Below, piece after piece: positions 10,833 to 40,310 of a stretch of 64,000 bases of DNA (the stretch's first letter is position 1; every line of letters starts with the position of its first letter). The DNA is from Paeniroseomonas aquatica (GTDB taxonomy: Bacteria; Pseudomonadota; Alphaproteobacteria; Acetobacterales; Acetobacteraceae), in the NCBI RefSeq assembly GCF_030409335.1, contig NZ_JAUFPN010000015.1, forward strand, positions 1 to 64,000, read 5' to 3'. The position numbers were made by a program, and so were the translations under genes. Below the pieces are notes generated by a model, which did no database searches, was not told the DNA's origin, and saw nothing but the letters and a program-made list of their open reading frames with translations.

Positions 10833-10843
10833 GGCGGCGACGA

Positions 10844-14420: not shown

Positions 14421-15077
14421 ATGGAAAACTCCGCAGACGCACGAGACAAACTACTAACGGACCCCGCATGGTCTAACGGCTTATTGCGACGCTCTCTTAA
14501 CGGTAACTGCGTCCAGGCGCTGGTAATTCTGGTTCTCGCTGGGCACGCGGTTTGGGCCGAGACGCGACCTGTGGAGCGTGTGTACTTTGCCACCAACAGC
14601 ATGTCTGAGCCGGTGCGGATGGCGCCGCTGAGTGAGTCTGTGGTGAGCAATGCCGATCTGCTTGAGTGGACGAAATCGGCGGTGGTTGCCGCCTATACAC
14701 TCAACTTCCTCGAGTACCGGCAGCAGGCTGAAGCGGCCAAAAAGAATTTCTCCACGGACGCCTGGGATTCATGGAGTTCATCGTTCATTACCGCAGGTAA
14801 TCTTGAGAGGCTCGTAGGCGGGAACATGCTATCGACGGCGGTTCTCACTGCGGCACCAGTGATCCGCGAAGAGACGGTGGTCAATGGAATCCGGATGTGG
14901 ATCATCCAGTTTCCCTTCGTCCAGACCTTCTTGAATAATTCCCAGGAAAACTCGGATCGCTTGATGGCGAATGTGCGTGTCAAGCGCACAACCGATCCGC
15001 GCTACCCGCGGGGCATTGTCCCCGACCAGTTGGTCGTCGGTCCAGATCGTGACATTCGCCGAGGAGGGGGACGGTGA
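14421..15077 (+). CDS. dotI: DotI/IcmL/TraM inner-membrane T4SS protein
   Basis: 218 aa. N-terminal TM at about residues 30-47 (CVQALVILVLAGHAVWA) and a periplasmic domain with AAYTLNFLEYRQQ, FSTDAWDSW and VPDQLVVG, features of the IcmL/DotI family. DotI forms inner-membrane complexes needed for conjugation and secretion. First gene of dotI-dotH-dotG; stop overlaps the dotH start. Confidence 0.9.
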   Translation: MENSADARDKLLTDPAWSNGLLRRSLNGNCVQALVILVLAGHAVWAETRPVERVYFATNSMSEPVRMAPLSESVVSNADLLEWTKSAVVAAYTLNFLEYRQQAEAAKKNFSTDAWDSWSSSFITAGNLERLVGGNMLSTAVLTAAPVIREETVVNGIRMWIIQFPFVQTFLNNSQENSDRLMANVRVKRTTDPRYPRGIVPDQLVVGPDRDIRRGGGR

Positions 15078-15979: not shown

Positions 15980-15981
15980 CA

Positions 15982-17190
15982 ATGGCCGGTACAGCTCTCC
16001 GTCGCATTTGGGGTGCGCGTCCTACCACCGGGCACAAGCGGCTAGTGCTACTGGCGAGCTCCGCCTTGGGCACTCTGGTCGTGATTGGGCTGGTCGCCAC
16101 CCTCGCACGCACGCGACATGAAGTGGTTGATCCCTCAGAAACCGCCGAAATTCCTAACCTCGATCGGAAGCCCGGCGGGATGAACAGCAACCTTGAGCTG
16201 GAGCGGCTTCGGCGTCTCGACGCGGAGCAGAAGGCAAGACAGGCGGCCGAGGATGGGCGGAGTTTTACGCCACGGATGGCAGGCGGCACAGGGTACGAAC
16301 CGGGGTTCACGCCTCCTGAGCGGCTAGTCACGGCCGAAAGAGTGGCGCCATTCATTGATGTTGCTCTGCCGGCGGCTACGCCTGTGACAGAACCACGCAA
16401 GGAGGCGAACAACGACGACATCGAGGCTTATCGCGCCGCCATGTCAGGTCTGCTCGCCTCCTGGAGGGGGAAGAGCCCGGCCGGTACTACCTATACCGAT
16501 GATCGCAATTCCGGGCCTGCGAATGCAGGACGAGGCAGGGCGGGCACACGGGACGATTTCGCGCCTTCCCAGGCGGCCGGGAGCGCAGGCGCTACCCAGA
16601 CTGTGTCAGCCTCGGCTCAGGGCCGCAAGCGGGTGCTGTTGCCAGCCAACACCGGTGTGTTTGGCGAGGTGGTCATGGGCGGCAACACCGACCAAGGCAA
16701 CATGCCCGTCATCGTCCAGGCTCTATCGGGTCCAATTGTGGGGATGCGAATGAGCGGCACCTTCGTTGGATCACAGCCGTCGGCGTGTGGCCTGCCGGTG
16801 CGTCTGGACAAACTGACCCTGCTGGACGGTCGACAGGTCCCTGTGGATGCATATCTTGTCGCTCCCAACGACATGAATACCTGCGTTGCCTCGCGGGTAG
16901 ACCCGCACACGCCAGAGCGCGTCATCTATCCTGTGTTGGGCGCGTTCGCGGCAGGCGTCGGCCAGGCGCTCGGAGCATCAGGCTCGGTGATCTCGCAAGG
17001 GCCTTACGGCGGTTACAGCGCCTTCCGCAATTTCAACGCGTCGCAGGTCCTTGGGATCGGAGCCGGAGCCGCAGGGTCGGCCGCCAGCCAGATCTTCCGC
17101 GAGCAGGCCCCACGAGGTCGAACGGCCTATCTCGATGCACGGGATCAGGTCGGCATCATGTTTATGGCGCCGGTCGAAGTGCCTGACTAA
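15982..17190 (+). CDS. dotG: DotG/IcmE/TraO channel protein (VirB10-like)
   Basis: 402 aa from ATG 15982, two bases after dotH. An N-terminal TM at about residues 22-42 (LVLLASSALGTLVVIGLVAT), a Pro/Arg-rich linker, and a C-terminal VirB10-type domain from about residue 210 (VLLPANTGVFGEVVMGG, QALSGPIVGMRMSGTFVG, VPVDAYLVAPN). DotG spans the envelope and lines the channel. It is much shorter than Legionella DotG because it lacks the long pentapeptide-repeat region, as in IncI TraO. Confidence 0.93.
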   Translation: MAGTALRRIWGARPTTGHKRLVLLASSALGTLVVIGLVATLARTRHEVVDPSETAEIPNLDRKPGGMNSNLELERLRRLDAEQKARQAAEDGRSFTPRMAGGTGYEPGFTPPERLVTAERVAPFIDVALPAATPVTEPRKEANNDDIEAYRAAMSGLLASWRGKSPAGTTYTDDRNSGPANAGRGRAGTRDDFAPSQAAGSAGATQTVSASAQGRKRVLLPANTGVFGEVVMGGNTDQGNMPVIVQALSGPIVGMRMSGTFVGSQPSACGLPVRLDKLTLLDGRQVPVDAYLVAPNDMNTCVASRVDPHTPERVIYPVLGAFAAGVGQALGASGSVISQGPYGGYSAFRNFNASQVLGIGAGAAGSAASQIFREQAPRGRTAYLDARDQVGIMFMAPVEVPD

Positions 17191-25916: not shown

Positions 25917-26378
25917 GTGCCAAAGACTCTCTCAATCCTTCCCGTGCTGGCCATTGCTGGGCTGCTTTCGGCCTGCGCGAACCACGCCGTCGAGCGTCCT
26001 GACATTGACGCGGAGGGGATGGCCAACCCCGAAGTGGCCCTCCAGACCAGCATGACCCGCATCCAGAAGGCGATGGCAGCCCTCCAGGCTACCCAGGCAG
26101 GAGCGCGGCCTGTGGTGCCGGATGAGCTCAATCGGCCGATCGTCTGGCGGTTCGACGGCCCTCTCGACAAAGCGGCGAAGGCAATCGCGGAAAGCATCGG
26201 CTACAGCTACGCCCCGCCCGCCACGGACATGCCGGCTGTTATGCCGCAGGTCTCGGTCAACGCGAACGGCCGCCCTGTCATCGAAGTGCTGCGGTCGCTC
26301 GGCACTCAGTCGGGTGACCGTGCAACGCTGTTCGTCGATCCCGATCACCGCATCGTTCAGGTTCGCCGCCATGTTTAA
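25917..26378 (+). CDS. dotD: DotD/TraH lipoprotein
   Basis: 153 aa from GTG 25917; the longer frame to 25758 is rejected because the SD and lipoprotein signal fix this start. Lipobox LLSAC (Cys about 20). C-terminal STN-like domain with RPIVWRFDGPLDKAAKAIAE and GRPVIEVLRSLG. DotD anchors the outer-membrane core with DotC and DotH. Overlaps dotC by 8 bases. Confidence 0.9.
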   Translation: MPKTLSILPVLAIAGLLSACANHAVERPDIDAEGMANPEVALQTSMTRIQKAMAALQATQAGARPVVPDELNRPIVWRFDGPLDKAAKAIAESIGYSYAPPATDMPAVMPQVSVNANGRPVIEVLRSLGTQSGDRATLFVDPDHRIVQVRRHV

Positions 26379-27354
26379 GCACCTTCTCTGTGCCACCACG
26401 ATCCTTGCTAGCTTGGCGGCTCCGCCGACCCCAAGCAGGGCAGCGGAGCGCGAAGTGGGTATCACCGGCGCCCCTGTCCCTCCCATGCCCGATGCATCGG
26501 AAATCGAGCGCGCTCTCAAGACTCTGGGCCGCGGTACAAACAGCCCCATTACCGGAGCTTCGCGGAGTGGCCAGGTAACGGGTGGAACCCGTCTTCCATC
26601 CCTTGAGGCCCTGCAGGGACTGCGGGCGAGTGAGCTGCCCGGCGAGGGCGCGGAAGGCCTCAAACTCCAAGGCATCTGCCAGGAAGGAAAGCGGCTTGGG
26701 GCAAGTGGCGGCCTGGCGGCCCGATCCTCCGCTATTGTGGAGTTGCTGCGTCGCTACGAGGACCGGCTAGACCTCGCCTTTGATTTCGAACCGCTGATGC
26801 TGCCGGCAAGTGGCCGGATCCGCATGCGGCCGCCCGTGGTGACTGAGGCCCAACTTTCCGTGGCACTGTCAGATGACGGGCAGGCGGCGCGGGAAACCGG
26901 ACGCATCTACCAGATCACTCGCCGGGCAACGCTCAGCGCCGGCAAGCCGAACTGGCGCTCCTACCTAGTCCCGGTCTTCTCGCCTCCGACGATGTCGCCA
27001 GAATCCCTGCGCCCTCGCACGGATAAGGAAGCCGTGGCCTGGGATCGCTGTGTGGCTCAGGGCTGGGCCGACGGCGAGCGCATGGCGGTCGAGAACTTCC
27101 GCGACGGTTTGGGCAACCTCGAGCGCGACATGATTGGCATGGGACGCTTTCTCGTCCTGCTGCGGGCCGGGCTGGTTGAGCCGCCACGGGTGGCAATGCG
27201 TCATATCCGGGTCCAGGGCGGTGGCAATGACATGCGCCTCAACGACACGCAGCTGAACATCACCGGCGGCGCCCGTCTCAACAGCAACCAGGGTCGTTGG
27301 CGGGAGACGCCGCAGATTGCGCCTGGCGGTCCGATCGGCACGGTGATCCGGTGA
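26371..27354 (+). CDS. dotC: DotC/TraI family periplasmic protein
   Basis: 327 aa from ATG 26371. Signal peptide (ending PSRAAE) without a lipobox, unlike Legionella DotC, which is a lipoprotein. Family features include YQITRRATLSAGKPNWRSYL, ending PVF, and DRCVAQGWADGERMAVENF. Partner of DotD and DotH in the outer-membrane ring. Its stop overlaps the dotB GTG. Confidence 0.9.
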   Translation: MFKHLLCATTILASLAAPPTPSRAAEREVGITGAPVPPMPDASEIERALKTLGRGTNSPITGASRSGQVTGGTRLPSLEALQGLRASELPGEGAEGLKLQGICQEGKRLGASGGLAARSSAIVELLRRYEDRLDLAFDFEPLMLPASGRIRMRPPVVTEAQLSVALSDDGQAARETGRIYQITRRATLSAGKPNWRSYLVPVFSPPTMSPESLRPRTDKEAVAWDRCVAQGWADGERMAVENFRDGLGNLERDMIGMGRFLVLLRAGLVEPPRVAMRHIRVQGGGNDMRLNDTQLNITGGARLNSNQGRWRETPQIAPGGPIGTVIR

Positions 27355-28505
27355 GCGCGGCCCTCACCCTGGCTCCTAGCCCGATCATGTGGCCGGGTGA
27401 TGGGCCTCGCCTGACGGCGGAGCGGCTCGACGGACTGCTCGCCTGGGCGTCGAATCTCGGTGCATCGGACATCCGGTTGGAGACCGGCAAGCGAATCATC
27501 CTGCAGGTTCACGGGCGGGTACTGAAAGTCTCTACCCGGCGGCTGACAGAGTACGAGGCGGAGATGGCGGTCAACCGCCTGACCAACCAGGACGACGGCG
27601 TCGCCTGGCTGCGGACGGCGCGTCCGCTCGACGTGGCCTATGAGCCCGGCCTCTTGGAGGGCTATGGCCGCCTCAGGTACCGCATCAACGCCAAGGGCAC
27701 CCTGTTCAAGGGCCAGGGTGGGGTGGCGGTTATCGCCCGAACCCTCCCGACGACACCGCGCCCGCTCGCTACGCAGAATGTAGAATATGGCATCCTGCGG
27801 GCTTTCAAGCCCAAAACAGGATTGGTCCTGATCGCCGGCGGCACAGGCGAAGGAAAATCGACTTTGGCAGCCGGGATGGTCCTCGACATCCTGCTAGACC
27901 CCAGTAGCAACCGCATCATCGTGGAATACTCCGCACCGGTCGAATATGTCTTTGACGGGATCGATGGACCGTCATCCGAGATTACGCAGATACAAATCGG
28001 CCTGAACATCGAGACCTTCGCCATGGCAATCCGCGATGCCATGCGATCAAACGCGGACACGATCGTCATCGGTGAGTGCCGGGATGGCGAGACGATGGAG
28101 GCGGCGCTCGACGCCGCCCTCGCCAACCACGCCGTCTACACTTCGATTCACGCGGGTACGGCCTACGAGACGATCCAACGCGCCGTGCGGCTGTGCCCCG
28201 TGGCGCAGCGGGATGCCTTGACGACGTCGATGGCCCAGGCGCTCCGACTGATCGTCAATCAACGGCTACTGTGGTCGGCCGACGGCACGCGGACGCCGGT
28301 CAGGGAGTACCTGATCTGCGACAAGGGCGTGCGGCGACAGCTGGCGCTGACGAATCCTGAGAAGTGGCCGCAACTGGTCGAGGCCCTGGTCGAGGAACGA
28401 GGCACGAGCTTCGCCCACTCCATCCGTCGCGCCCTCGCCGAGGGACGGATCTCCGAGGAAGTCGCCAACGACAACCTGCTGGGAGAGGCCGCCCATGTGG
28501 CGTGA
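27351..28505 (+). CDS. dotB: DotB/TraJ secretion ATPase (PilT/VirB11 family)
   Basis: 384 aa from GTG 27351. Walker A GGTGEGKST at about residue 162, Asp-box-like EYSAPVEYVFDG, Walker B TIVIGECRDGETM, His-box YTSIHAGTAYETI. Hexameric ATPase energising the channel. The stop overlaps the next start. Confidence 0.94.
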   Translation: MSAALTLAPSPIMWPGDGPRLTAERLDGLLAWASNLGASDIRLETGKRIILQVHGRVLKVSTRRLTEYEAEMAVNRLTNQDDGVAWLRTARPLDVAYEPGLLEGYGRLRYRINAKGTLFKGQGGVAVIARTLPTTPRPLATQNVEYGILRAFKPKTGLVLIAGGTGEGKSTLAAGMVLDILLDPSSNRIIVEYSAPVEYVFDGIDGPSSEITQIQIGLNIETFAMAIRDAMRSNADTIVIGECRDGETMEAALDAALANHAVYTSIHAGTAYETIQRAVRLCPVAQRDALTTSMAQALRLIVNQRLLWSADGTRTPVREYLICDKGVRRQLALTNPEKWPQLVEALVEERGTSFAHSIRRALAEGRISEEVANDNLLGEAAHVA

Positions 28506-28743
28506 TACGGCGCGGCGCATCACCATCGCCGGGCTAGAGGCCTGGGCGTTGCTGCCGCTGCTGCTATGGGCGGGCCACATGCGGTGGTGGACCCTCTACG
28601 TGGCCATCGCGGGCGTCGCGGCCTTCGGGCTGCTCCAATACCTCGGCCTCACCCTGTTCGGCGCCCTACGGCGCATCCGGTCCTGGTTCGCAGGCAAGCG
28701 CCGGCCGGGCATCCCCCATCACAAGCAAAGGCACTTCGTCTGA
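28495..28743 (+). CDS. icmT: IcmT/TraK small membrane protein
   Basis: 82 aa with one or two hydrophobic helices (AWALLPLLLWAGHMRWWTLY and then AGVAAFGLLQYLGL) and a basic C-terminus. The pattern W...LW..H...WTL followed by an R-rich tail is that of IcmT. Follows dotB, as traK follows traJ in IncI. Confidence 0.8.
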   Translation: MWRDTARRITIAGLEAWALLPLLLWAGHMRWWTLYVAIAGVAAFGLLQYLGLTLFGALRRIRSWFAGKRRPGIPHHKQRHFV

Positions 28744-29195
28744 TGCGCCCGAACCGCCTGCCTGCCATCGCAGCCGTGCTGCGCGAGGTCCTCCAACAGT
28801 CGGGCCGGACCATCACGGTGTTCGACCAGCCGACCCGCCAGACCCTGCCCGTCTCGCTCGACATCGCCGTCTCTGAGCGGGGCCTGCTGCCGGTGTTTTT
28901 GGCCTCAGGGCAGGCCGTCTGGCAGGACGCGACCGGGCACGGGCTCGGCGTGGAACTCCAAAGGGACCGGGACACGGTCCTGGGCTACCGCGCCATCAGC
29001 GTGGGCTCGGCGTCGACGGCCGTGGTCTTGCTCAGCACCATGGAGGCGATCGAGCGGGTGGCCGCCCTAGGCATCCTGCAGGTCAACCGGCTGAACGCGG
29101 TGTGGCGGGATGCTATGGCGCGGGCGGCGACGGTGCAGCCGGAGGCGGATTATACCCTGGCGCCCTCCAGCCCCTTCCGGAGGGTTGCCCGGTGA
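28743..29195 (+). CDS. Conserved-position T4SS protein (TraL-like by position)
   Basis: 150 aa from ATG 28743, overlapping the icmT stop by one base. Soluble, no signal or TM; mixed alpha/beta sequence, e.g. ITVFDQPTRQTLPVSLDIA and RAISVGSASTAVVLLSTMEA. IncI has traL after traK; I can offer only that positional match. Confidence 0.6.
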   Translation: MRPNRLPAIAAVLREVLQQSGRTITVFDQPTRQTLPVSLDIAVSERGLLPVFLASGQAVWQDATGHGLGVELQRDRDTVLGYRAISVGSASTAVVLLSTMEAIERVAALGILQVNRLNAVWRDAMARAATVQPEADYTLAPSSPFRRVAR

Positions 29196-29764
29196 TCCGC
29201 AAGGCGCTCCTGGCGGGGGCGACCCTCGCCGTGTTGCTGGCGGGTGAAGCTGGAGCCTTCGAGCTCCGCAATGCCCCAGGACCGGTGCCGGTGGCGATGC
29301 CGGGGCAATCGGCGCAGCAGGTCATCCAGGTCTGCATCGAGACGGCGGCGCGGGTTCACCGGCTGCCGGCGCAGATCCTCGTCGTCATCCTCCGTGTGGA
29401 GAATGGACGCCTCGGCCGCATCAGCCCGAACGCCAGCGGTGCGCCGCCGGACGTCGGGCCTATGCAGGTCAATGCCATGTGGCTCACCAGGCTTGCCGCG
29501 AGGTGGGGCGTCAGCCGCGAGGAGGCCTTCCTCGCGCTCCGCGACGACTTCTGCACGAATGTCGAGGCCGGAGCCTGGCTGCTGCGGGAGGCGATGAACG
29601 ATGCCAAGGGCGACTTCTGGGAAGGGGTGGCCTTCTATCACTCGCGGACCCCGGAGTTTAAGCGCCGGTACAAGCGCCTCGCCCTGGAGCAGGCCCTGGC
29701 AGTGGCGCGGCTTGCCCCCTCCCTCGACGCACTCACGACAACCACGGCGGCGGCTGCCCAATGA
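29192..29764 (+). CDS. Lytic transglycosylase (SLT/VirB1-like)
   Basis: 190 aa from GTG 29192, signal peptide (ending AGEAGAFE). SLT-type domain: ILVVILRVENGRLG with the catalytic Glu in VENG, DVGPMQVNAMW, and NVEAGAWLLREAM, VAFYHSRTP. Opens peptidoglycan for channel assembly. Overlaps both neighbours, so tightly coupled. Confidence 0.85.
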   Translation: MIRKALLAGATLAVLLAGEAGAFELRNAPGPVPVAMPGQSAQQVIQVCIETAARVHRLPAQILVVILRVENGRLGRISPNASGAPPDVGPMQVNAMWLTRLAARWGVSREEAFLALRDDFCTNVEAGAWLLREAMNDAKGDFWEGVAFYHSRTPEFKRRYKRLALEQALAVARLAPSLDALTTTTAAAAQ

Positions 29765-30939
29765 ATACGCCCCCTCCCGTCCGGCAGAACCGCGACGAAG
29801 ACAACCTCATCCTGTTCGGCCTGATCGTGTTGATGATGGCGGGCCTTGGTTGGCTGCTCTGGATGACCTTCCGGCCGCAACTCGCCGCGGCGGTGATGAC
29901 CTGGCACCACTGGCTGATCCAGGGAGCCTCCCTGTTCACTGACCGCTTCGCTGCAATGGACCGCCAGTTGCTAGCCGCTGATCCCACGTCGCCGACTGTG
30001 ACGTTCGATCGACTCTACCGCCTCGCCCATAACGTCGGCGGCTTCTACAGCTACCCGGTCGCCGCCCTGGCCATCGGGCTGGCGGTCTGGTGCTGGAGGC
30101 GAGTGGGTACGGCCCGGTACCGGCGACGCTTCGACGTAGAGGGCCTGCTCGCGGAGCAGGCCACGGTGTTTCCCTTTATGGCGGCCTATGTGGGCCGGGG
30201 GCTGCGCCCCGTGAATCCGGCCGAGGGTGAACCTCGCCCGGCTGATCCAGTGCTGCACGCCGGCGAGTGGGTTCAGCGCTTCGCCCGCGGGCCCAAGGGT
30301 GAGTTCTGCGAGCGCCAGGCGCGCGAGGAGATGATGCGCCAGCTCGGACCGATCTGGACCGGCGTGGCCGACGCGGCGCCGCATGTCCGGGCCATGGTCG
30401 CCGCCATGGCACTCCATGCCGCTCGTCGACGGGAGGACGCGGTGCAGATGCTAGGCGCGCTGTCGCGGAGCCTACCGATCGACGCCAAGGACGGCCCCGC
30501 CGGTCCGGCGCAGCCATTGGAGTTCTCGGCCAAAGCGATCGCCATCGCGGACGAATACCTCCGCGACCCCGACCTTCGAGGCCGGATGGAGAAAGCCGCG
30601 GCTGGGCATGCCTATACCGCGACCGCGCTGATGAGCATGTTGTGTGAGGCGAGGGCACGCGCCGGCATCTTCAATCCAGGCATGTTTCAATTCCTCCAGA
30701 TGGTCGACCGGCGGCTGTTCCTGGCCCTGGACTCCCTCGGATTTCCGGTCATCGGCGTGCCCTGGCACTTGATCGCAGCGCAGACTCCTTTTGCCGAGGC
30801 GGCCGCTGCGCGCAGCCATTGGGCAGCTGAGCGCGAAGCGAAATGCCGCCTGGTTTTGCCGGTTTTTGGGCCAGCCATCGTCACCATTCGCGCCAAGGCA
30901 TCCGACTTTGGTCCGCGTAAGCAGGAGCACGTTCTATGA
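29761..30939 (+). CDS. dotM: DotM/IcmP/TrbA coupling-complex protein
   Basis: 392 aa. TMs at about residues 18-37, 45-60 and 97-112, then a cytosolic domain with FPFMAAYVGRGLRPVNP, HAYTATALMSMLCEARARAG and the ending common to IcmP/TrbA. DotM partners the DotL ATPase. The 3' end of the gene contains a transfer-regulon motif for the next gene (30886-30894). Confidence 0.9.
   Translation: MNTPPPVRQNRDEDNLILFGLIVLMMAGLGWLLWMTFRPQLAAAVMTWHHWLIQGASLFTDRFAAMDRQLLAADPTSPTVTFDRLYRLAHNVGGFYSYPVAALAIGLAVWCWRRVGTARYRRRFDVEGLLAEQATVFPFMAAYVGRGLRPVNPAEGEPRPADPVLHAGEWVQRFARGPKGEFCERQAREEMMRQLGPIWTGVADAAPHVRAMVAAMALHAARRREDAVQMLGALSRSLPIDAKDGPAGPAQPLEFSAKAIAIADEYLRDPDLRGRMEKAAAGHAYTATALMSMLCEARARAGIFNPGMFQFLQMVDRRLFLALDSLGFPVIGVPWHLIAAQTPFAEAAAARSHWAAEREAKCRLVLPVFGPAIVTIRAKASDFGPRKQEHVL
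30886..30894 (+). promoter_or_regulatory. Transfer-regulon motif inside the end of dotM
   Basis: ATTCGCGCC within dotM codons (encoding TIRAK), 41 bases before the next ATG. No clear hairpin. Confidence 0.5.
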
Positions 30940-31415
30940 AATTTGATTGCCCGAATGGCACGACGCTCGAGATCGACCCGACTGCAGGCGTCACTGTGCG
31001 AGTATTTCCAAGCGGCACGATGGAAATCCAGGGACCGAAGAAAGCGGGGGGAGGGAAGCTGGCAGTGAGCGTGATGCTGTCTATGGTCGCCGCCGGCGCA
31101 ATCGGTTTCCTGGCATCTGACGTGATCCGTGATGCATCCAATGTCGAGGCCGAAAGGTTAGCGCGATACGATAATACGACCGCACCACGCATCCGAGGTG
31201 CCGAGCCGCCGGCATGGGTTGGGTCGCCGGAAACTGCGGAGGCTATTCCGCAGTACCTGCCTCCGCGTTCACGCCCGGCCCCACCAAGTAGCGCTCCAGT
31301 GGTGATCACGCCCTCGGATGTGGAGCGACTTTACCAACAGACGAACCCCGCTCGTGCACCGGCGCAGTCTCCGAGTAATGCGCCGCAGAGCCCATTCGGG
31401 CTTGATGCTCCGTGA
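30936..31415 (+). CDS. Single-TM membrane protein between dotM and dotL
   Basis: 159 aa. The N-terminal 45 residues are a small beta-rich unit (CPNGTTLEIDPTAGVTVRVF), then TM at about 46-65 (LAVSVMLSMVAAGAIGFLAS), then a Pro-rich tail. ATG overlaps the dotM stop and its stop overlaps the dotL start. Not recognised; the position suggests a role with the coupling complex. Confidence 0.68.
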   Translation: MKFDCPNGTTLEIDPTAGVTVRVFPSGTMEIQGPKKAGGGKLAVSVMLSMVAAGAIGFLASDVIRDASNVEAERLARYDNTTAPRIRGAEPPAWVGSPETAEAIPQYLPPRSRPAPPSSAPVVITPSDVERLYQQTNPARAPAQSPSNAPQSPFGLDAP

Positions 31416-33775
31416 GCACCGTCCCGCGGGTCCAGCATGGCCCGAGCGCCGCCAGTGAGCGCCAGGCACAGCAAATCTACCGGCCGATCCGCTCACCATT
31501 TCAGACTGCCCGGGAGATCCTGGAGGGGCGAGGATCGGCGGTAGTCCTGGCGCTTATGGGCGGGTTTGCAGTGGCGGAGCCGGCAACGGTCACCGCCATT
31601 GCTCCCTTGAGCCTGCTGTATGCCGGGACGGTTCTCAGCCGCCCGGTCGTTCTGCCGTTCCGGCTGCCCAAATCGGCGGGGATCAAGGATCGCAACTTCC
31701 CGGCGCCCGGGGGCCGCAAGCCGCAGACAGCAGCAGGCATCTTCTACCTCGGCTACGACGCCGAGACGGGCGAAGAGTGTTGGGTTACCAACCCGGACCT
31801 CCGACAACACATCAGCGTCCCCGGGATCACCGGCGCGGGCAAGACGGAAACCTTGCTGGGCTTCTGCTTCAACTGCATGTCGGTTGGTTCAGGCCTCGTC
31901 TATGTGGATGGCAAAGCGGACACAGACCTCTATGCCCGGATCTACGCACTCGCCCGACTGCTGAACCAAGAGCGCAACATCCGGGCGCTCAATTTCATCG
32001 TCGCCAGTGGCGACCGCGACTCTTCCACATTCAACCCCTTCGGTGCCGCCTCGCCCGATGCCATGCGCGAAATGCTCATGGCGCAGATCGAATCGAATCC
32101 AGAAAAGGGAGGTGGTGAAAACCACATCTTCATGCAGCGCGCCGGCGCCCTCGTGGGTGCGCTAACGCCAATCTTCGATTGGGTTCGCACAAACTTTCGG
32201 ATCGTGCCCGACATCGAGTTGATGCGCTTCTCGATCCTACTCGAAAATATCGCCAGCATCGCCGTCGATCGCATGTTCCCGCGCCTGAACGTGGATACCA
32301 ACGAGGTCGAGATGGTGGACATCTCGGCGATGCCGGAGCGCTTGATTGCACCATTGGTGAGCTTTTTGAAATCCACCGGCGGCTATGACATGACGCTTCC
32401 TTGGAATAAGCAGCGGAGCGAGGAGCCGACAAGGCAACACGGCTTCGTCGCGATGCACTTCGATGCCTGCTTCACGCAACTTGCTGGATCTCTTGGGCAC
32501 ATTTTCCGAGCCGGCATCCCCGATATCGACATGCGCGATATCGTGTTGAACCGGCGCATCCTGCTGGTCAACCTACCAGCTCTCGAGAACTCAGGAGAAA
32601 CCACTACGAGCCTGGGCAAGCTCACGATCGCCGTTCTCCGCAGCATGATGGCGCAAAGCCTCGGTGGGCAGTTGGAGGGTGACTACGAAGAGATCATCGC
32701 TAATAAGCCCGCCACGGCCGACACCCCCTTTGGAGTAGTGCTGGACGAGCTGGCCGCCTTCGTCTCGACCAGCACAACGACGCTGCTCCAGCAGGGCCGG
32801 GGCCAAGGCTACAGTTTCGTCCTGGGCTGGCACGATGTAGCGGGGCTGCGAGCCAGAATCGGCGACGCTGCATATACACTCCTCAACAACGCGCCCCTCC
32901 AGCTCCTCATGCGACAGCATGAGGGTGGCGAAAACCGGCGGCATATCGAGTCCACGGTTGGCGAAAGCGACACAACCCAGATCACCAGCTACCGCTCCAA
33001 GGATGGCGGCGCCTACCAAGAGGCAGAAACGGCAGAGGTCCGACGCACGAGCCGGGTGGACTGGCGGGATCTCCGAGGGCTGATCGCGGGCGAAGGCGTC
33101 ATGGTCCTGGGCAATACCAAGGTTCACGCGAACCTCTTCTACGCCAACACCTCCGCCAAGGGGGCCATCCGTCGAGCCCGACCAGTGCCCCTGACCATGC
33201 ACGATCCCGCGGCGATCCGCCAAGCCGTGGACAGTGGACAGCGGGTGCGGAAAGCGATCGAAGGCGCAGACCGTCCCGAGCGGGTGACACCACCCCTCTC
33301 CCCGGTTCTGCAGGCCCTGTTCCAAGGGTTCGGCACTGCCAGAGCAGCGGGCATCGGGGTGTCCGAAGCGATCGACGCGGGGATCAACGCGGCCGGGGCG
33401 GTGCCCATGGAGGATTCGCTGTATGAGGCCGAGCCAACACCGGCAACGCCACCAGACGGGCTGGGCGAGGCTCCGGTAACGGAGTTCAGTGCGACCCTTG
33501 CCTCGGTGGTTGATCGGCCGCAGCACGCCGCCAGTGAACAATCGACGATTGTCTCTGTCGATCGCCAAGTGGCGGACCTATTGCAGCAAATCGCTGAGAT
33601 CGAGGAGAGAACCGGGCTCGACCCTGCCGATGCCAGGACAGCCTCGATCCAGGCCTGTACGGAGCGGGATGCCGCCCTGGACGGCCTGGCGCTGCAGGAG
33701 CCGAGGGCACTGCCGCCGGAGGAACTTCGCCGGCTGCTGGGGTCGTTGGTGGCCGAGGTCAGGCGGGCGGCGTAG
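31412..33775 (+). CDS. dotL: DotL/IcmO/TrbC type IV coupling ATPase
   Basis: 787 aa. Two N-terminal TMs (about 42-56 and 60-76), Walker A GITGAGKT at residues 138-145, Walker B GVVLDELAAF near 442, then a C-terminal extension. Brings the relaxase-DNA complex to the channel. Length matches IcmO/TrbC. No TrwB/TraD-type coupling protein is present despite the TrwC-type relaxase. Confidence 0.94.
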   Translation: MSTVPRVQHGPSAASERQAQQIYRPIRSPFQTAREILEGRGSAVVLALMGGFAVAEPATVTAIAPLSLLYAGTVLSRPVVLPFRLPKSAGIKDRNFPAPGGRKPQTAAGIFYLGYDAETGEECWVTNPDLRQHISVPGITGAGKTETLLGFCFNCMSVGSGLVYVDGKADTDLYARIYALARLLNQERNIRALNFIVASGDRDSSTFNPFGAASPDAMREMLMAQIESNPEKGGGENHIFMQRAGALVGALTPIFDWVRTNFRIVPDIELMRFSILLENIASIAVDRMFPRLNVDTNEVEMVDISAMPERLIAPLVSFLKSTGGYDMTLPWNKQRSEEPTRQHGFVAMHFDACFTQLAGSLGHIFRAGIPDIDMRDIVLNRRILLVNLPALENSGETTTSLGKLTIAVLRSMMAQSLGGQLEGDYEEIIANKPATADTPFGVVLDELAAFVSTSTTTLLQQGRGQGYSFVLGWHDVAGLRARIGDAAYTLLNNAPLQLLMRQHEGGENRRHIESTVGESDTTQITSYRSKDGGAYQEAETAEVRRTSRVDWRDLRGLIAGEGVMVLGNTKVHANLFYANTSAKGAIRRARPVPLTMHDPAAIRQAVDSGQRVRKAIEGADRPERVTPPLSPVLQALFQGFGTARAAGIGVSEAIDAGINAAGAVPMEDSLYEAEPTPATPPDGLGEAPVTEFSATLASVVDRPQHAASEQSTIVSVDRQVADLLQQIAEIEERTGLDPADARTASIQACTERDAALDGLALQEPRALPPEELRRLLGSLVAEVRRAA

Positions 33776-34534: not shown

Positions 34535-37500
34535 CTACATCCCTGGTGATGGCGAGAACCGGGGACTTGGCAAGATAGGCTCTGGCACGGGCATCCTACG
34601 CAGAGTGGTGGCCGGCGCCATGCGCTCCGGCGCCAGCCCGTCGAGGGTGGTCCGCATCCGAGATGCCATACCATCCAGTCGTGGCGCCAGGGCAACCCGA
34701 ATCTCTTCGGACTGCGCGGCCTCCTGCCGCTCGGCAGCGGCGTTGCGGCCATCCAACTCCTGCCGCTGTACCCGAATGTCGGCACCGATGAAGCGGGTCC
34801 GGGCGATGGCTTCTTGTTCCTGGAGGGTGGCCTGCAGGTCCATACCGAGAGATTTGTAGGTGGCGCGGGACATGTCCTTGCCTGCCTGTTTCCAGAGATC
34901 CTCCGAGGTGATCGGGGTCTGCTCTCCGATCGCCCTCTTAGAGCGAATGGCCTCGAACTGCCCGGCCTCGCCGATCATCGTCCAAGTCCACCACTCGGCA
35001 CGGCTCTCGGCGGTGTAGCCGCGGAACTTGCCCATGGCCGCGGTGCCGCGGGGCATGGCGTCGATGTGCTCGTCCGAGGTAACGCCCTGGATGCTGTCGA
35101 TGGTCTGCGCCCAACCAAAGCCGAGCAGCAGCCGGTTGGAGCCATCGGCCTTCAGGCGGCGCCACTGGACGTCGCCCACCACGCCCGCCTTGGTCCGGAT
35201 CCGCAGCCCCTGATCGGTGACGGCCTCCACGGTCACCACGTCGCCGTTGGAGCCGATGCTGGCGCCCTCGCCGTCGATGGTGGCCCAGGTTTTCCGGTAG
35301 AGCCGCACCCGATCACCGACTGAGAGGGGCAGTTGGTACCGTTCACCATTCTGGTCCTCCGCCTGGTAGACGGTCTCGGCCGAGGCGATCTCTCCCCGTG
35401 CTTTGAGCCGGCTCCGGATGGCTCGACTGATTTCGCCGGCGTCCTGGTTGGTCAGGGTCGAGCAGGTGATGCCCTGCTTGAAGCCCGCCGCGGCGAGGGC
35501 ATCCTTCCGGCGGATGAAGTGCTCGGCGATCGCCTCGTTCACCTCCTCGAGGTCGCCGCCCAGCATCTGCGCCGAGCCGTTCCGCCGCTTGAGATCGAGG
35601 GCCTTCGCGGCCTCGCCGTCGCGGAAGTAGTTGGCAATCCGCAGCCCTTCAGCCGTTTTTTGCCGGACTGAGGATAGCAGGGCGGGCCGCTCGGATTGCG
35701 GCAGAGTTCGGTTCAGGATCTCGATGCTGTCGCCCGCCTCAATTGCTTGGCACTGCTCGCGGTCGCCAAGCCCTTTGATGACGCAGCCGGTACGGGCCTG
35801 CAATTCCAGCAGCGCGGTCATGGCCCGCGGCGCGATCTGGCTGACCTCCTCAAGGATGATGACGGTGTTCTCGGTCGGGCGGAACTTGCCAGTCTCCATG
35901 GCGCGCAGCAGGGTCGCCACAGCGTATGTCTGTTTGATGCCCGCGCCCTTCAGAGCATCGGCCTGGCCCCAGGCAGTCGACACGCCGATGACGTGCCGGC
36001 CGCCCGGGTCGAAGCGGGTATCGGCCTGGTAGGCGGCGACAAGGGGCTTGAGGAGCGTCGACTTGCCGGCGCCCGCCACGCCGGTCAGGAGGGTGAGGGC
36101 GCTGCCGCGGCCGAGGGCGAAGATTGCTGCCACTTGGGCCCGGCCATGGTCGTTGTCGAAGTTGAGACCCGAGGCCCTAATCTCCTTGACCAAAGCCTCC
36201 TCGGACAGCGCGCCGGAAAAATCCCGGCAGGCCGCGAGGGCGAGCTCAGTCATGCGCCGCTCGATCTCGACCTGGACAGAGTTGGTGACCCGGACCCGGC
36301 CGTCCATGACGCCGCTGATGAGCATGGCCTTCTGGCCACGGATGGTGATGCCCCGCTCCTCGAGGAGGGCGACCACCTTCTCGATGTCCTCCTCGCCCTT
36401 GAACCCGACCCCGATGAGGCCGCGGGTGGCCCACAGCGCCAGCTTGTCCCGGTCGAGGACGGCGTCGGTGTAGAATTCCTCAGCCAGCCGGCTCGCCGCG
36501 ATCTTGTAGGCGATGTCGAACCGCTGCTCGTCGGTCAGCTCCGCCGGCTTCACCCCGCGCAAGACGGTGGAATGCTCCCAGGCGATGGAGGCGGCCTGTT
36601 GCCGGTAGAACTCCCGGTCGGTCGGGGCTTCGTCGACGGGGACGCCGGCGCTGTTCTTCTTCAGCCGCTCATTGGTCGAGGCAGAGCGGGCGAGCTCGTA
36701 CTTCGTCTCGGCCGAGAGGTTCGACCAGTCGAGCCCCATCCGCTTCGCCGCGGCCTTGGCGTTCCGCAGGGTCTGCATGTGCCCCTTGGAGAACAGATCG
36801 ACGGCATCGCCACGGATGTCCGTGAGGATAGCATAGCGGCCGCTCGGATCGACGGAGACGGCAATGCCCTGGTCGCGCAGCTCTTGGGCCAGGATCGCCT
36901 GGGCATAGGCCGCGTAGAGCAGGACGCGGGTGTCGGTCATCCGCTGAGAGTCGAGCGAGCCGACCCGGCCGTCCTTGGTGACGACCAAGTTGAAAAACGC
37001 ATTGTGGATATGGGCGTGCGGGTCGCCTGGCGCCGAGAGCTCGACGAGGTAAGTGACGCCGGTCTTGCCGTCACGGACCTGGTGGGTCGGCCGCGCCTGG
37101 TCATGGCGGAAACTAACCCAGCCGGTCTCGCCGGGATCGACGCCCTCCTCGCCACCCTTGCCGCGGCGGGCCCATCCGAGATCCTTGCCGATCAGGGTCA
37201 TGGCCTTGTGGTTCACCCGGTCGAGGATGGACCACAGCAACCCAGCCTCAGCCGGGGTGTCGGCAAACTCGACTGCGAGCGAGATGGACTTGTGGGGGGC
37301 GAAGGTGAAGTCGAAGGCCGAGTTCACCCTAGAAAACCTGCTCCAGGCATCCCCGGTATCGCCGCGGCGGGCCTCGAATAGCCGGTCGAGCTGCAGATCA
37401 CTCGGCAGCGCGGTGGGGTCGATGCCCAGCACCCGCGCGACCGAGGCTGGCATGTCCTTTCGCCAGTGCGCCCGGCTGTCCCGCCCTGTGTAGTAGGACG

Positions 37501-37633
37501 TCAGCCGCCCGGATGCGTCTGGCTTCTTCTCCGGCTGGCACCGGAGGTTGGTCGGCTCGGGGGCGTTCTGGGTCAGGTAGGCGCGGACGAGCTTCCCCGC
37601 CGAGGTCGCCAGGATCTTCCGGAAGGTGATCAC
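34535..37633 (-). CDS. TrwC/TraI-type (MobF) relaxase-helicase
   Basis: 1032 aa from GTG 37633 (an open frame continues upstream but lies over another gene). Relaxase domain: early Tyr at about residue 19 (KLVRAYLTQ), further Tyr in SYYTGRDSRAHW, and the metal-binding three-His motif PHAHIHN. Helicase part: Walker A LLTGVAGAGKSTLL with RecD-like motifs downstream (VIILEEVSQIAPRAM). Nicks oriT, stays bound to the strand and unwinds it. R388 TrwC is 966 aa. GTG overlaps the stop of the upstream small gene. Confidence 0.93.
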   Translation of the reverse strand: MITFRKILATSAGKLVRAYLTQNAPEPTNLRCQPEKKPDASGRLTSYYTGRDSRAHWRKDMPASVARVLGIDPTALPSDLQLDRLFEARRGDTGDAWSRFSRVNSAFDFTFAPHKSISLAVEFADTPAEAGLLWSILDRVNHKAMTLIGKDLGWARRGKGGEEGVDPGETGWVSFRHDQARPTHQVRDGKTGVTYLVELSAPGDPHAHIHNAFFNLVVTKDGRVGSLDSQRMTDTRVLLYAAYAQAILAQELRDQGIAVSVDPSGRYAILTDIRGDAVDLFSKGHMQTLRNAKAAAKRMGLDWSNLSAETKYELARSASTNERLKKNSAGVPVDEAPTDREFYRQQAASIAWEHSTVLRGVKPAELTDEQRFDIAYKIAASRLAEEFYTDAVLDRDKLALWATRGLIGVGFKGEEDIEKVVALLEERGITIRGQKAMLISGVMDGRVRVTNSVQVEIERRMTELALAACRDFSGALSEEALVKEIRASGLNFDNDHGRAQVAAIFALGRGSALTLLTGVAGAGKSTLLKPLVAAYQADTRFDPGGRHVIGVSTAWGQADALKGAGIKQTYAVATLLRAMETGKFRPTENTVIILEEVSQIAPRAMTALLELQARTGCVIKGLGDREQCQAIEAGDSIEILNRTLPQSERPALLSSVRQKTAEGLRIANYFRDGEAAKALDLKRRNGSAQMLGGDLEEVNEAIAEHFIRRKDALAAAGFKQGITCSTLTNQDAGEISRAIRSRLKARGEIASAETVYQAEDQNGERYQLPLSVGDRVRLYRKTWATIDGEGASIGSNGDVVTVEAVTDQGLRIRTKAGVVGDVQWRRLKADGSNRLLLGFGWAQTIDSIQGVTSDEHIDAMPRGTAAMGKFRGYTAESRAEWWTWTMIGEAGQFEAIRSKRAIGEQTPITSEDLWKQAGKDMSRATYKSLGMDLQATLQEQEAIARTRFIGADIRVQRQELDGRNAAAERQEAAQSEEIRVALAPRLDGMASRMRTTLDGLAPERMAPATTLRRMPVPEPILPSPRFSPSPGM

Positions 37634-37944
37634 GGAGACTGCCTCTGAGCGAGGAGCGCGACGGTCTCGCCCGGGATGGCTTTGACCGCCCTGGTCAACT
37701 CGCGGATCGCTGCAACCTGCGCGGTTGCAGACGCCTCGATGACAGTCACCAGCTTCTCGATGGCCTCGGTCGTGGTCGGACCTTCCTGAGGCTTCGGTGT
37801 CAGCAGCTTGACGATCGTCTCGAGCAGTTCGCCCTGCTCGAATTGTCGTTCGCCGAAGGTGGTCATCGTCTGATTCACGATGACCAAGCTGTCGGTCAGG
37901 CCGTCGTTCAGGCCCTCGAAGGCCGCGATCAGGTCTTTGTCCAT
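37630..37944 (-). CDS. Small protein in the TrwA position
   Basis: 104 aa from ATG 37944. Helical (LIAAFEGLNDGLTDSLVIVN, ATAQVAAIRELTRAVKAI), no membrane segment. Directly upstream of and overlapping the relaxase gene, beside the likely oriT. In R388 that place is held by TrwA, the oriT-binding accessory. No ribbon-helix-helix is obvious here, so this is analogy only. Confidence 0.6.
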   Translation of the reverse strand: MDKDLIAAFEGLNDGLTDSLVIVNQTMTTFGERQFEQGELLETIVKLLTPKPQEGPTTTEAIEKLVTVIEASATAQVAAIRELTRAVKAIPGETVALLAQRQSP

Positions 37945-37951
37945 GGTCCCG

Positions 37952-37975
37952 AGGGTGACCCCTCCTGGCGCGAAT
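37952..37975 (-). promoter_or_regulatory. Transfer-regulon motif plus RBS hairpin (relaxase operon)
   Basis: ATTCGCGCC on the minus strand at 37975-37967, directly followed by AGGAGG and a small hairpin GAGGG-gtca-CCCTC that includes the SD. The ATG is at 37944. Confidence 0.6.
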
Positions 37976-38042
37976 GGAGCCACCCTGCCGCACCGGAAAA
38001 ATGCGCGGTCAGCGCAAAACTTGTCCCGCAGTGAGCCGCCTC

Positions 38043-38072
38043 GCACCAAAGGTGCATTCGTGTATTACCACT
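38043..38072 (+). other. Predicted oriT (TrwC-type hairpin and nic region)
   Basis: GCACC (38043-38047), AAA, GGTGC (38051-38055), then ATTCGTGTATTACC. From memory, the R388 TrwC target is a GCACC/GGTGC hairpin with a GAAA loop followed by GTATTGTCT, with nic just downstream; the resemblance is close. The site lies in the only large divergent gap beside the relaxase gene, exactly where R388 has oriT between trwA and stbA. Nic would be expected about 8-15 bases after the stem. Confidence 0.6.
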
Positions 38073-38195
38073 CTTTCTTTTCCCTCTCCTCGCCTTTTCC
38101 TGGCTGTTTCCTCGCCAGACCCTGGCTAAATCCTCGACAGATCCTCGCCGCAGGCGGCCGGAAGCGTACGCAGGCGCATCGGAAAGCCGGATTCC

Positions 38196-38204
38196 ATTCG
38201 CGCC
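38196..38204 (+). promoter_or_regulatory. Transfer-regulon motif (stbA-like gene)
   Basis: ATTCGCGCC 22 bases before ATG 38227. Only a tiny GGG-aca-CCC stem follows. Confidence 0.5.
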
Positions 38205-38226
38205 GTCGGGGGACACCCTTCCGGGC

Positions 38227-38754
38227 ATGACGAAGCGATCTGCCCCGAGGCCCCTGAAAGACCGCGTGAGCGAGCGCGTCCACGGCAACACCTCCGAAGC
38301 CTACCTGTGGATCCGGGTGGCCTATCGGCGGCTGAGGTCGCGGATGGCCGTCCGCTACCCACCCTACGACAAGCTGACGGCTGAGATGGTGGAGGCCGGA
38401 GTACCTGGCGGTGGAGGTACCGTCCTCACGGCAAAGGCAGTGCGGCGTCTCTGGCTGAAAGTCTGCGAGGACATCGAGGCCGAGGCGAAGGCACGGGGAA
38501 AGGTAGCCAAGGCAGCACCCGTCGACTGGAAGCCCCAGCCCACCCGGCCGCCGGCGCCAACCGCTGCCGTGGCTCCCAGGCCAGTGGCCGCCGTGACGCC
38601 CCGGCCAGCCCCGATCCAGGCCGCTCGGCCCATGGCCGACATAACTTCCGGTCAACTGGCCTCCCTCCTTACGAAGCGACCGCCAGAGAGCCGAGAGGAG
38701 AGGCTGCTGGAGATTGAGAGGACGCGGGCCGAACTGCGAAAGCGCAACGAGTAG
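38227..38754 (+). CDS. Small DNA-partition-type protein in the StbA position
   Basis: 175 aa. N-terminal basic helical domain of about 90 residues (SEAYLWIRVAYRRLRSRMAV, VLTAKAVRRLWLKVCEDI) that could bind DNA, a Pro/Ala linker and a charged C-terminal helix (EERLLEIERTRAELRKR). Divergent from the relaxase operon across the oriT region and followed by a ParA-like ATPase. This is the stbA position of R388. Homology not established. Confidence 0.6.
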   Translation: MTKRSAPRPLKDRVSERVHGNTSEAYLWIRVAYRRLRSRMAVRYPPYDKLTAEMVEAGVPGGGGTVLTAKAVRRLWLKVCEDIEAEAKARGKVAKAAPVDWKPQPTRPPAPTAAVAPRPVAAVTPRPAPIQAARPMADITSGQLASLLTKRPPESREERLLEIERTRAELRKRNE

Positions 38755-38844: not shown

Positions 38845-39741
38845 ATGACCAAGAAGCAGGATCACAGCGGGGCGGCCGTGATGGATGCCGTAGGCACCGA
38901 GGCCTTAGTAGAGCGGCTCGGCCAGTCGTCGGATCAGATCGGCGATGGGAACGCCGGAGCGGTCACGGAGGACACCGCTCCAGTCCTCCTCGTGCGTGGC
39001 GGCCGCGGTAAGAGCGGTGGGTCCTTCTTCCTCGACCACGCCATTCAGCGGGCCCGCCACGCCGGCCGCCAGGTCAAGCCGCTGGATGCCGACAAGCGAT
39101 CCGAGACGCTGATCAGGGCCTATGGCCAGCCGGCCGACCTGAAAGACAGCCGGCCGATCGACCCGCAGTGGGCAACCGCGCCAACCTCCGAGGATCCGAT
39201 CGTGGTCCGCGACTGGCTCATGCAGGAACTGGACCTGATGGCCGAGGACCGCATCTCGCGGGTCATCGACTTCAACGGCGGCGACAGGGTGATCTCGGAT
39301 GTGCACCGCGACCTCGACCTCGGCCCCTTTTGCCAGGCGATCGGCGTAAAGCTGGTGAGCGTCCTGACGCTGGGCCCCGAGGTCGAGGACTTCCGGCACA
39401 TGGTCAAGGCGGCTCATGCCGGCCACCTCGAGCCCCATCAGATCGTGCTGGCCTTCAATGAGGGCGTGATCCCGATGGGCGTCACAACGTTGGGCGCCTT
39501 CGAGCCGATCCTGGCAGCGCCCGAGCTCGAAGAGCTGGTCGCTATGGGGGCGGAAATGATGGTGATGCCGCGGCTGGCCTGCGTGAAGGGGCTGAAGGAG
39601 GCGGGGCTTTCGCTCTACCAGGCAGCATATCCGGCCCAGGGCACAAGGGTCAGCGCGACGCTGCTGCACATGACCCGTCAATGGCTGCAGAAGCAGGAGA
39701 AGGCCATTGTCGAGAAGGGCATCGCGGAGAAACTTCCTTGA
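38845..39741 (+). CDS. ParA/StbB-like P-loop ATPase
   Basis: 298 aa from ATG 38845. N-terminal loop VRGGRGKSGGSFFLDHAI is a deviant Walker A (GGRGKSGG). Later VIDFNGGD and VLTLGPEVEDFRHMV resemble the rest of the MinD/ParA fold. Probably positions the plasmid or recruits it for transfer, as StbB does in R388. Its stop overlaps the TTG of the next gene. Confidence 0.72.
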   Translation: MTKKQDHSGAAVMDAVGTEALVERLGQSSDQIGDGNAGAVTEDTAPVLLVRGGRGKSGGSFFLDHAIQRARHAGRQVKPLDADKRSETLIRAYGQPADLKDSRPIDPQWATAPTSEDPIVVRDWLMQELDLMAEDRISRVIDFNGGDRVISDVHRDLDLGPFCQAIGVKLVSVLTLGPEVEDFRHMVKAAHAGHLEPHQIVLAFNEGVIPMGVTTLGAFEPILAAPELEELVAMGAEMMVMPRLACVKGLKEAGLSLYQAAYPAQGTRVSATLLHMTRQWLQKQEKAIVEKGIAEKLP

Positions 39742-40310
39742 GCACGACCGCCGAGCCCGGCAGCTTCCTGCAGCAGCACCTGGACCAGATGGTCGAGGCG
39801 GGCTTCCGCGAGGGTATCCTGCCTGATAGCCCGCTAGGTCAGTGGCAGGAGGCGGTGGTCCTGCTGACCAGAGACTTCGACCGGGACCTCAAAGCGGTGG
39901 TCGGCGAGGCACGGGCTGCGGCCCAGGCCTCAGCCGCCATGGCAAATGCCGCTTCGCACAAAGCGGAATCCATGGTCCGCCATGCCGAGATCCAAACCGA
40001 GCAGGTATTGGCTCAGACCGTCGAGCAACTGACGCCGGCGGTTGCGAAGGCATTGGGGGAGGCGGTGGTTATCCGCGAGCGCCGGTGGAACCGTCAAAGA
40101 CACGCCATGACGGCAACCGCTGTGGCTGCGGTGCTGCTGGGGGTGTTCGTCGCGGGCTACGTCGTCCGCGGCTTCCAGGACGGTCCCAACGCGGAGCTGG
40201 TGCAACGGTGTATCCGGGCGTCGGTCAAGGATGCCGCCGGCAACACCTACTGCAACATCATGGCCCTACGAGATCCGGTGGGGCAAGGAATGGGAGCACG
40301 CAGACCATGA
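39738..40310 (+). CDS. Single-TM protein in the StbC position
   Basis: 190 aa from TTG 39738 (overlapping TGA of the ATPase gene). A helical region rich in Ala/Glu (residues 50-115), one TM at about 124-143 (MTATAVAAVLLGVFVAGYVV) and a short periplasmic tail with two Cys. Co-translated with the ATPase. Function unknown. Confidence 0.65.
   Translation: MSTTAEPGSFLQQHLDQMVEAGFREGILPDSPLGQWQEAVVLLTRDFDRDLKAVVGEARAAAQASAAMANAASHKAESMVRHAEIQTEQVLAQTVEQLTPAVAKALGEAVVIRERRWNRQRHAMTATAVAAVLLGVFVAGYVVRGFQDGPNAELVQRCIRASVKDAAGNTYCNIMALRDPVGQGMGARRP

Follow-up and report, generated by a model that had tools for sequence, protein, structure and literature searches.

A probable origin of transfer with a conserved hairpin and core, followed by an 11-bp phased repeat array, in Paeniroseomonas aquatica

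Plasmid R388 is of the MPF_T kind. Its relaxase TrwC recognises the proximal hairpin arm of the origin of transfer (oriT) together with a single-stranded segment, which forms a U-turn, and cuts after T-N-T before a purine (PMC4176350). The stb genes of R388, a kind of gene for which its authors saw a bias towards MPF_T plasmids, are accompanied by the stbDRs, two sets of five 9-bp repeats with 2-nt spacing that are bound by StbA, and StbA acts on segregation through these repeats as well as on conjugation (PMC3098194). Small plasmids that carry only an oriT are a known class (PMC11389934).

The DNA analysed here, referred to as the window, is a stretch of 64,000 nt from Paeniroseomonas aquatica. 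A preliminary description had pointed to a hairpin GCACC-AAA-GGTGC with a downstream tract as a probable oriT of the R388 TrwC type, placed in the divergent gap between a relaxase operon and stb-like genes. Direct reading of the letters gave GCACC at 38043, AAA at 38048 and GGTGC at 38051, followed by ATTCGTGTATTACC at 38056-38069, which confirms hairpin and tract over 38043-38069. The gap was found as described: 282 bp (37945-38226) separate the divergent predicted genes 37630-37944 (-) and 38227-38754 (+), and the hairpin lies inside, starting 99 nt from the start of the left-hand, 104-aa ORF. Very probably, this feature is the oriT nic region of a conjugative plasmid, or of an element resembling one, with a MOBF relaxase and an MPF_I system. 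The features at and around the site are:

38043..38055, +: probable oriT hairpin GCACC-AAA-GGTGC, 5-bp stem and 3-nt loop, supported by fold, conservation and compensatory stem changes.
38056..38063, +: putative 8-nt single-strand recognition segment ATTCGTGT, from the hairpin to the predicted nick; relatives have a similar segment, and R388 was used for comparison.
38063..38064, +: predicted nic phosphodiester T^A, from T-N-T before a purine by analogy to R388 (PMC4176350) and from a GTCT^GTAG variant.
38087..38152, +: six 11-bp phased direct repeat units, a stbDR-like, putative accessory array; four units are exact to TCCTSGC plus 4 variable bases.
37967..37977, -: CCATTCGCGCC box, 33 nt before the small ORF (box start to start codon).
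38194..38204, +: CCATTCGCGCC box, starting 33 nt ahead of the start codon of the stbA-like ORF; it forms an inverted pair with the box at 37967-37977.
37630..37944, -: ORF of 104 aa that lies ahead of the relaxase gene and overlaps it; by its position a candidate relaxosome accessory protein.
34535..37633, -: MOBF relaxase-helicase, from Pfam, NCBIfam and alignment; in the list of ORFs its frame begins at 37993.
38227..38754, +: first gene of the leading region, by its position StbA-like, with a helical domain predicted confidently for about residues 20-94.
38845..39741, +: second leading gene, StbB-like; predicted P-loop ATPase of the MinD/MipZ/Get3 fold class with a GGRGKSGGS loop.
39681..40310, +: third gene of the leading region, by its position StbC-like, with a single hydrophobic segment (by eye); start uncertain.

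The likeness to the TrwC hairpin holds for the arms, GCACC/GGTGC, which are identical to those of the R388 oligonucleotide in PMC4176350; the hairpin stands 5' of the nick in both, a TNT precedes a purine, and a relaxase side and a stb side diverge from the site. It does not extend to the loop, which has 3 rather than 4 nt, or to the linker, which is the 8-nt ATTCGTGT rather than the 9-nt GTATTGTCT (PMC4176350). Because of this loop and linker, the window site may be said to work like the R388 nic, not to be a strict member of its type. Unlike in R388, which has a trwABC operon, the coupling-protein gene is on the opposite strand, and the secretion genes are of MPF_I. Literature searches gave no title on this oriT among the matches listed.

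The gene adjoining the small ORF encodes a MOBF relaxase by its domain content, with a TrwC relaxase domain (Pfam PF08751, 3.2e-29) followed by an SF1 helicase-type domain (AAA_30, PF13604, 9.4e-24), and the NCBIfam model MobF (NF041492) scores 118.4 bits against a cut-off of 100. Alignment places its start at GTG 37633, overlapping the stop of the small ORF, and most aligned relatives begin with MMTFRK or MITFRK. Y139, Y167 and Y168 (listed-ORF numbering) are conserved in 20 of the 22 aligned relaxases, L140 and L141 being without aligned residues there, and an HxHxH motif is present as HAHIH; these tyrosines and histidines are candidate catalytic residues. In a phmmer search of the PDB at 1e-3 the relaxase matched no chain, and a search of a genome collection with one genome per species gave no confirmed relative. 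The 104-aa ORF had no Pfam match; a gene of similar size precedes mobF in the annotated plasmid relatives examined.

The coupling and secretion genes of the window are:

31412..33775, +: coupling protein, TrbC/DotL-like; Pfam cut-off passed, NCBIfam TrbC at 236 bits below its cut-off of 800.
26122..30939, +: MPF_I genes, with a TraI-type T4SS protein (26122-27354), a DotB/TraJ-like ATPase (27297-28505), an SLT transglycosylase (29102-29764) and DotM (29761-30939).
14421..17190, +: MPF_I core complex genes DotI, DotH and DotG/TraO-like.
3354..5675, -: DotA/TraY family gene, NCBIfam 347.8 bits against a cut-off of 100.

Pfam cut-offs were passed by DotI, DotH, TraI and DotM and the NCBIfam cut-off by DotA/TraY, and NCBIfam scores for TraO, DotG, DotB, TraJ, DotM and TrbC were below their cut-offs; the main T4SS ATPase TraU/DotO was not found in the Pfam/NCBIfam searches. 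DotI and DotH presumably correspond to TraM and TraN. An MPF_I assignment calls for at least four of the type-specific genes TraIKLMNPQRWY (PMC3158045), and with TraY, the TraI-type protein, DotI and DotH, scored with Pfam/NCBIfam models and not with the profiles of that paper, the system classifies as MPF_I (type IVB), of the R64/Dot-Icm kind. The pairing with MOBF is not new, since PLSDB already types three relatives so, among them Beijerinckia pBIND01 and Komagataeibacter pA. These two have the relaxase family, the small ORF before the relaxase and the MPF_I pairing in common with the window; in pBIND01 a scan of 2,075 nt gave no core of this kind, and in pA the core lies 1.6 kb from the relaxase.

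Folded as single-stranded DNA, the hairpin forms as drawn (-4.6 kcal/mol, z -3.1). GCACCNNNGGTGC has one copy in the window against 0.22 expected, and because at least one copy arose in 21 of 100 shuffles of the 64 kb, the hairpin alone is not beyond chance. The longer core GGTGCANTNGTGTAT has a single copy in the 6.5-Mb genome, at the 38043 site, and its reversed control has 0 matches. The evidence beyond chance is the conservation of these letters at the same place in relatives.

Six Roseomonas plasmids with relaxases 51-54% identical contain in the gap the hairpin, roughly 90-115 nt from the small ORF, and GGTGCAWTGGTGTATGG; the left arm is GCACC in five of them and GCATC in one (L014). For a wider survey, 44 relaxase-anchored places were fetched without use of the motif, and up to 4.5 kb upstream (1,036 to 4,500 nt, depending on the place) was scanned for [AG]TGCAWTBGTG[TC]AT, a pattern widened after earlier looks at relatives and fixing the purine at +1 by itself. 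The core was found at 19 of the 28 places whose relaxase is 44% or more identical, the window included, in every case on the strand reading away from the relaxase; on the other strand it was found at 0 of the 44 places, and the reversed control likewise at 0 of 44 (128,735 bp over all 44). This same-strand recurrence of hairpin and core, together with the adjoining MOBF relaxase, supports the probable oriT reading. We define here a grouping, the oriT of the Acetobacteraceae MOBF clade, by the above core with its stem, lying upstream of a MobF gene that runs in the divergent direction; judged from its sequence, the window site belongs to it.

The nine related places at which the scan gave no core comprise five Hyphomicrobiales plasmids (two of Methylosinus and one each of Methylocapsa, Beijerinckia and Methylocella), three genomes from the window's own family (L130, L131, L133) and L138, for which 1,036 nt upstream only was available. 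None of the 16 places with more distant relaxases has the core; four of these show a similar left arm followed by GGTGCAWTGGTCTGTAG, and contigs C13 and C261 of the window's genome account for two of the four. As observations in their own right, distant MobF relaxases with 30-37% identity (L140 and L141 on C13 and C261, also L115 and L126) go with what appears to be a second oriT type, which reads GCACCTTCTAGGGTGC ATTGGTCTGTAG at L140 and L141. Contig C252 of the same genome (L005/L006/L007) carries a second, broken relative of the relaxase, in three pieces of 46-57% identity, to which belong a separate oriT core, GCACT-AAC-AGTGC ATTGGTGTAT, an array and a StbA-like ORF.

Among the 19 relaxase-anchored sites, 14 have a loop of 3 nt and 5/5 stem pairs; L018, L101 and L108 pair at 4/5, L148 (GCACC-GAGGAGC-GGTGC) pairs fully with a loop of 7, and L132 pairs with a loop of 8 (5 bp) or as GCATCC-GAGGGC-GGATGC (6 bp). 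Covariation was tested on the loop-3 rows, 17 of the 19. Two of the five stem pairs are changed on both sides (GCATC/GATGC in L135 and L136, GCACT/AGTGC in L005), and 96.5% of the stem cells pair, with 3 cells unpaired, against 14-52% when the partners are slid. The covariation score was reached in 2 of 500 shuffles and the number of pairs changed on both sides in 16 of 500. L132 and L148 differ by a further compensated stem change. These compensatory changes amount to few events, because related rows share ancestry.

The collection genome_contigs, with one genome for each of 84,980 species, was scanned for GCAYSNNNGGTGCAWTSGTGTAT, which yielded 72 sites in 71 stretches. By title, 65 of the 71 are from Acetobacteraceae, in which we take the named genera to belong; the others are three unspecified Proteobacteria MAGs (L038, L045, L051) and three other taxa (L024, L025, L071). 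We estimate that about seven sites would be chance matches in a collection of this size. A MobF relaxase domain is encoded within the flanking DNA (at most 8 kb) at 19 of the 72 sites, in all 19 on the left, on the opposite strand and divergent, as in the window, and a StbB-like ORF lies on the right at 25 of the 55 sites with at least 1.7 kb of right flank. Twenty of the 72 sites have at least 4 kb of left flank without MobF; two of them (L024, L025) are probable chance matches, and one (L085) has a StbB-like ORF.

The core is also present on pGOX4 (13.2 kb), a plasmid of G. oxydans ATCC 9937 (8.9 kb) and pTT14-9 (14.6 kb), all typed non-mobilizable in PLSDB, and on a K. rhaeticus plasmid typed MOBQ, where it occurs besides an annotated TraA relaxase; none of the four shows convincing MobF relaxase-domain homology (best E 0.51). 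Strain TT14 also has pTT14-2 and pTT14-4, both with MobF, and pTT14-2 has its MobF gene, yet is typed non-mobilizable in PLSDB. pTT14-9 and pTT14-2 have identical core letters, but judged by eye the array of pTT14-9 resembles that of L020/L101 more closely than that of pTT14-2; downstream of its array, pTT14-9 has an unannotated StbA-like ORF. A pairing of pGOX4 with pGOX1 as its helper proved unsupported, with no core in the 6 kb upstream of the pGOX1 relaxase, a region that contains a Tn3-family transposase gene. On pGOX4 itself, two oriT cores are inverted and face to face less than 100 bp apart (L149 about 10782-10880; the same pair in L150). The copies without MobF are like the pOriT hitcher plasmids, small plasmids with an oriT and without a matching relaxase, but in contrast to those described in PMC11389934 their mobilisation is putative.

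Downstream of the core in the window, the array units read, in order, TCCTCGCCTTT TCCTGGCTGTT TCCTCGCCAGA CCCTGGCTAAA TCCTCGACAGA TCCTCGCCGCA. Period 11 has z = 4.0 over 38070-38226. Over 38076-38160, limits that were picked to fit the array, it has z = 6.0, and period 22 scores slightly above period 11. TCCTSGCNNNNTCCTSGC, a pattern derived from the array, has two copies within the window, both in the array, against 0.01 expected; TRF left the array undetected at score 30. For the comparison with relatives, the 130 nt after the core were evaluated at periods 7 to 25 against dinucleotide shuffles, and an array was called significant at p <= 0.01 for period 11 or 22. Of 110 starting sites, 60 remained after exclusion of those whose stem had under 4/5 pairs at loop 3-7, those followed by less than 130 nt and those resembling another site downstream; L132 was excluded on account of its stem, although a longer loop closes it. 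The best period was 11 or 22 at 47 of the 60 non-redundant sites, and the array was significant downstream at 45 of 60, against 3 of 57 upstream control stretches. It was not significant at 15 of the 60, three of them probable chance matches, and the three sites from other taxa fail. Between plasmids the repeat unit varies and the period is kept, frequent 5-mers being TCCCG, CCAGC, CGGAA, TGGAC and others.

In having tandem repeats with a period of 11 bp ahead of the leading operon, the locus resembles a stbDR-stbABC module. The R388 stbDRs have the same period (9 bp + 2) and the same placement at the head of the leading operon (PMC3098194), whereas the array sequence here differs between plasmids. 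The leading genes, called stb-like in the preliminary description, are so in their order: a helical protein comes first, then a P-loop ATPase, then a protein with one hydrophobic segment, and stbABC of R388 likewise has its P-loop ATPase second of three. The 38227 product, StbA-like by position, gave no credible Pfam, PDB-sequence or PDB-fold match and is at most a candidate StbA homologue. What speaks for the label stb-like is gene order, position, the array and the ATPase, and not homology to StbA. For the 38845 product no Pfam family passes; its predicted structure (pLDDT 79.6) matches Get3 best in Foldseek (E 1.7e-5), MipZ at a TM of 0.53, and also MinD, nitrogenase Fe protein and dethiobiotin synthetase, which predicts a P-loop ATPase of the MinD/MipZ/Get3 fold class. 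Because this class also includes enzymes such as dethiobiotin synthetase, we only infer a ParA role. Relatives of all three leading products occur right of the core among the examined loci, the second most often.

The StbB-like P-loop reads GRQRVGKT or GRGKSGGS, the latter in the window; in L010, L013, L031, L078 and L137 it reads GRGR.GGS/T, apparently without the usual lysine, and this branch may possibly have lost ATPase activity. Similarity of the StbA-like helical domain is weakly correlated with similarity of the array (Mantel r = 0.21, p = 0.004; 20 loci, shared ancestry included), and with that of the upstream flank the correlation is r = -0.05 (p = 0.69). The array might instead serve the leading operon as a site for partition or regulation and play no part in transfer. 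We think this somewhat unlikely: R388 StbA does work on segregation through the stbDRs too (PMC3098194), and six of the ten tested sites without MobF in at least 4 kb, as well as both pGOX4 sites, lack a significant array, but the other four (L057, L062, L079, L084) have one, and the effect of R388 StbA on conjugation also runs through the stbDR repeats (PMC3098194).

Just before both divergent genes lie inverted arms (37952-37978 and 38193-38219; 27 nt, 81% complementary) that contain the two CCATTCGCGCC boxes. Exact copies of this 11-bp box start at 596, 10834 (-), 17201, 25867, 30884, 37977 (-), 38194 and 38774 (+ unless marked). Each is followed, 33-68 nt on (from the first base of the box to the start codon), by an ORF of 90 codons or more, and many of these ORFs are transfer genes. 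The 6.5-Mb genome has 27 exact copies, 8 of them on the window's 79-kb contig and 3 on the 3.2-kb contig C252, and the reversed pattern has 3 copies genome-wide; the box is probably a shared promoter or operator of a transfer regulon. The window also encodes a tyrosine recombinase (62113-63063, -), a UmuC/ImpB-type polymerase (46524-47795, +), a Toprim-domain protein (5737-8700, -) and a MATE-family transporter (53192-54589, -).

By analogy to R388, the nick is predicted on the + strand at 38063/38064. A cut at GTGT^A is supported, since a second core variant, GTCT^GTAG, which precedes two further relaxase genes in this genome, resembles R388 GTCT^ATAG. That the site is an oriT nicked instead at 38064/38065 or 38065/38066 is an unlikely alternative. 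A 9-nt linker like that of R388 would shift the nick one base onward, and in three relatives (L019 GTGTATATGA, L044 GTGTATATATGAAG, L080 GTGTATTGAAG) the bases after GTGTAT differ from those of their neighbours, so that recognition may extend to GTGTAT. A shifted nick, however, would put T at +1, where efficient transfer of R388 needs a purine (PMC4176350), and in the GTCT^GTAG variant the R388 trinucleotide TCT precedes the same cut as predicted here.

It is very improbable that the site is a degenerate, non-functional relic. Its core is unlike that of the Roseomonas plasmids (ATTCG against AATGG/ATTGG before TGTAT, TTACC against TGG after GTGTA), but the relaxase frame is without an internal stop, many transfer genes are present, and the closest relative, L075, has ATTCGTGTAT in common with it. 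A terminator or regulatory hairpin between divergent operons, with the real oriT elsewhere, is hardly credible and was rejected together with an RNA-family reading: the hairpin does sit between divergent genes and is by itself within chance, but a T-run after it is absent on both strands, the sole terminator-like match in 37900-38300 is a different stem (38002-38016; 0.6 expected), no Rfam family reaches its gathering score, conserved bases extend beyond the stem on one side only (in rows picked by the core pattern), and the core travels with the relaxase gene.

For the site as an oriT nicked at 38063/38064, we propose the following course of transfer. The adjacent relaxase would recognise the segment ATTCGTGT and the 3' (proximal) arm GGTGC (38051-38055), which is likely its recognition arm, cut the + strand between T38063 and A38064 (ATTCGTGT^A) and remain bound to the 5' end at 38064. 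The + strand would exit with 38064 first, led by the 38227 side with its stb-like genes, and the left-hand genes for relaxase and secretion would reach the recipient last; there the hairpin would re-form and the relaxase rejoin the ends. The array at 38087-38152 may be the platform to which an accessory DNA-binding protein attaches. The 38227 product is the most likely candidate for this protein, and together with the StbB-like ATPase it might link the oriT region to gene control and to the positioning of the plasmid, in the way of stbDR, StbA and StbB in R388.

Tentatively, we suggest for the Acetobacteraceae MOBF plasmids that the relaxase target is near-constant and that the adjacent array changes from plasmid to plasmid as an address specific to each, which a StbA-like protein diversifying alongside it would read. 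Because plasmids with the core and without MobF come with or without the array, the array may decide which helper serves which plasmid. In the staphylococcal pWBG749-family oriTs with SmpO (PMC8136818), a constant relaxase core is likewise combined with divergent accessory-protein sites and with copies on other plasmids; the accessory family there is RHH, and specificity was proved by experiment. For specialists, the interest lies in the phased, drifting array and in the copies without MobF. The plasmids form a natural series in which the relaxase site is nearly fixed and the accessory array changes, and the role of phased oriT arrays is therefore open to testing. They also provide a sequence-level oriT definition for a plasmid group that typing can miss, as with pTT14-9, pGOX4 and pTT14-2, so that transfer links would become predictable in acetic acid bacteria, Roseomonas and relatives.
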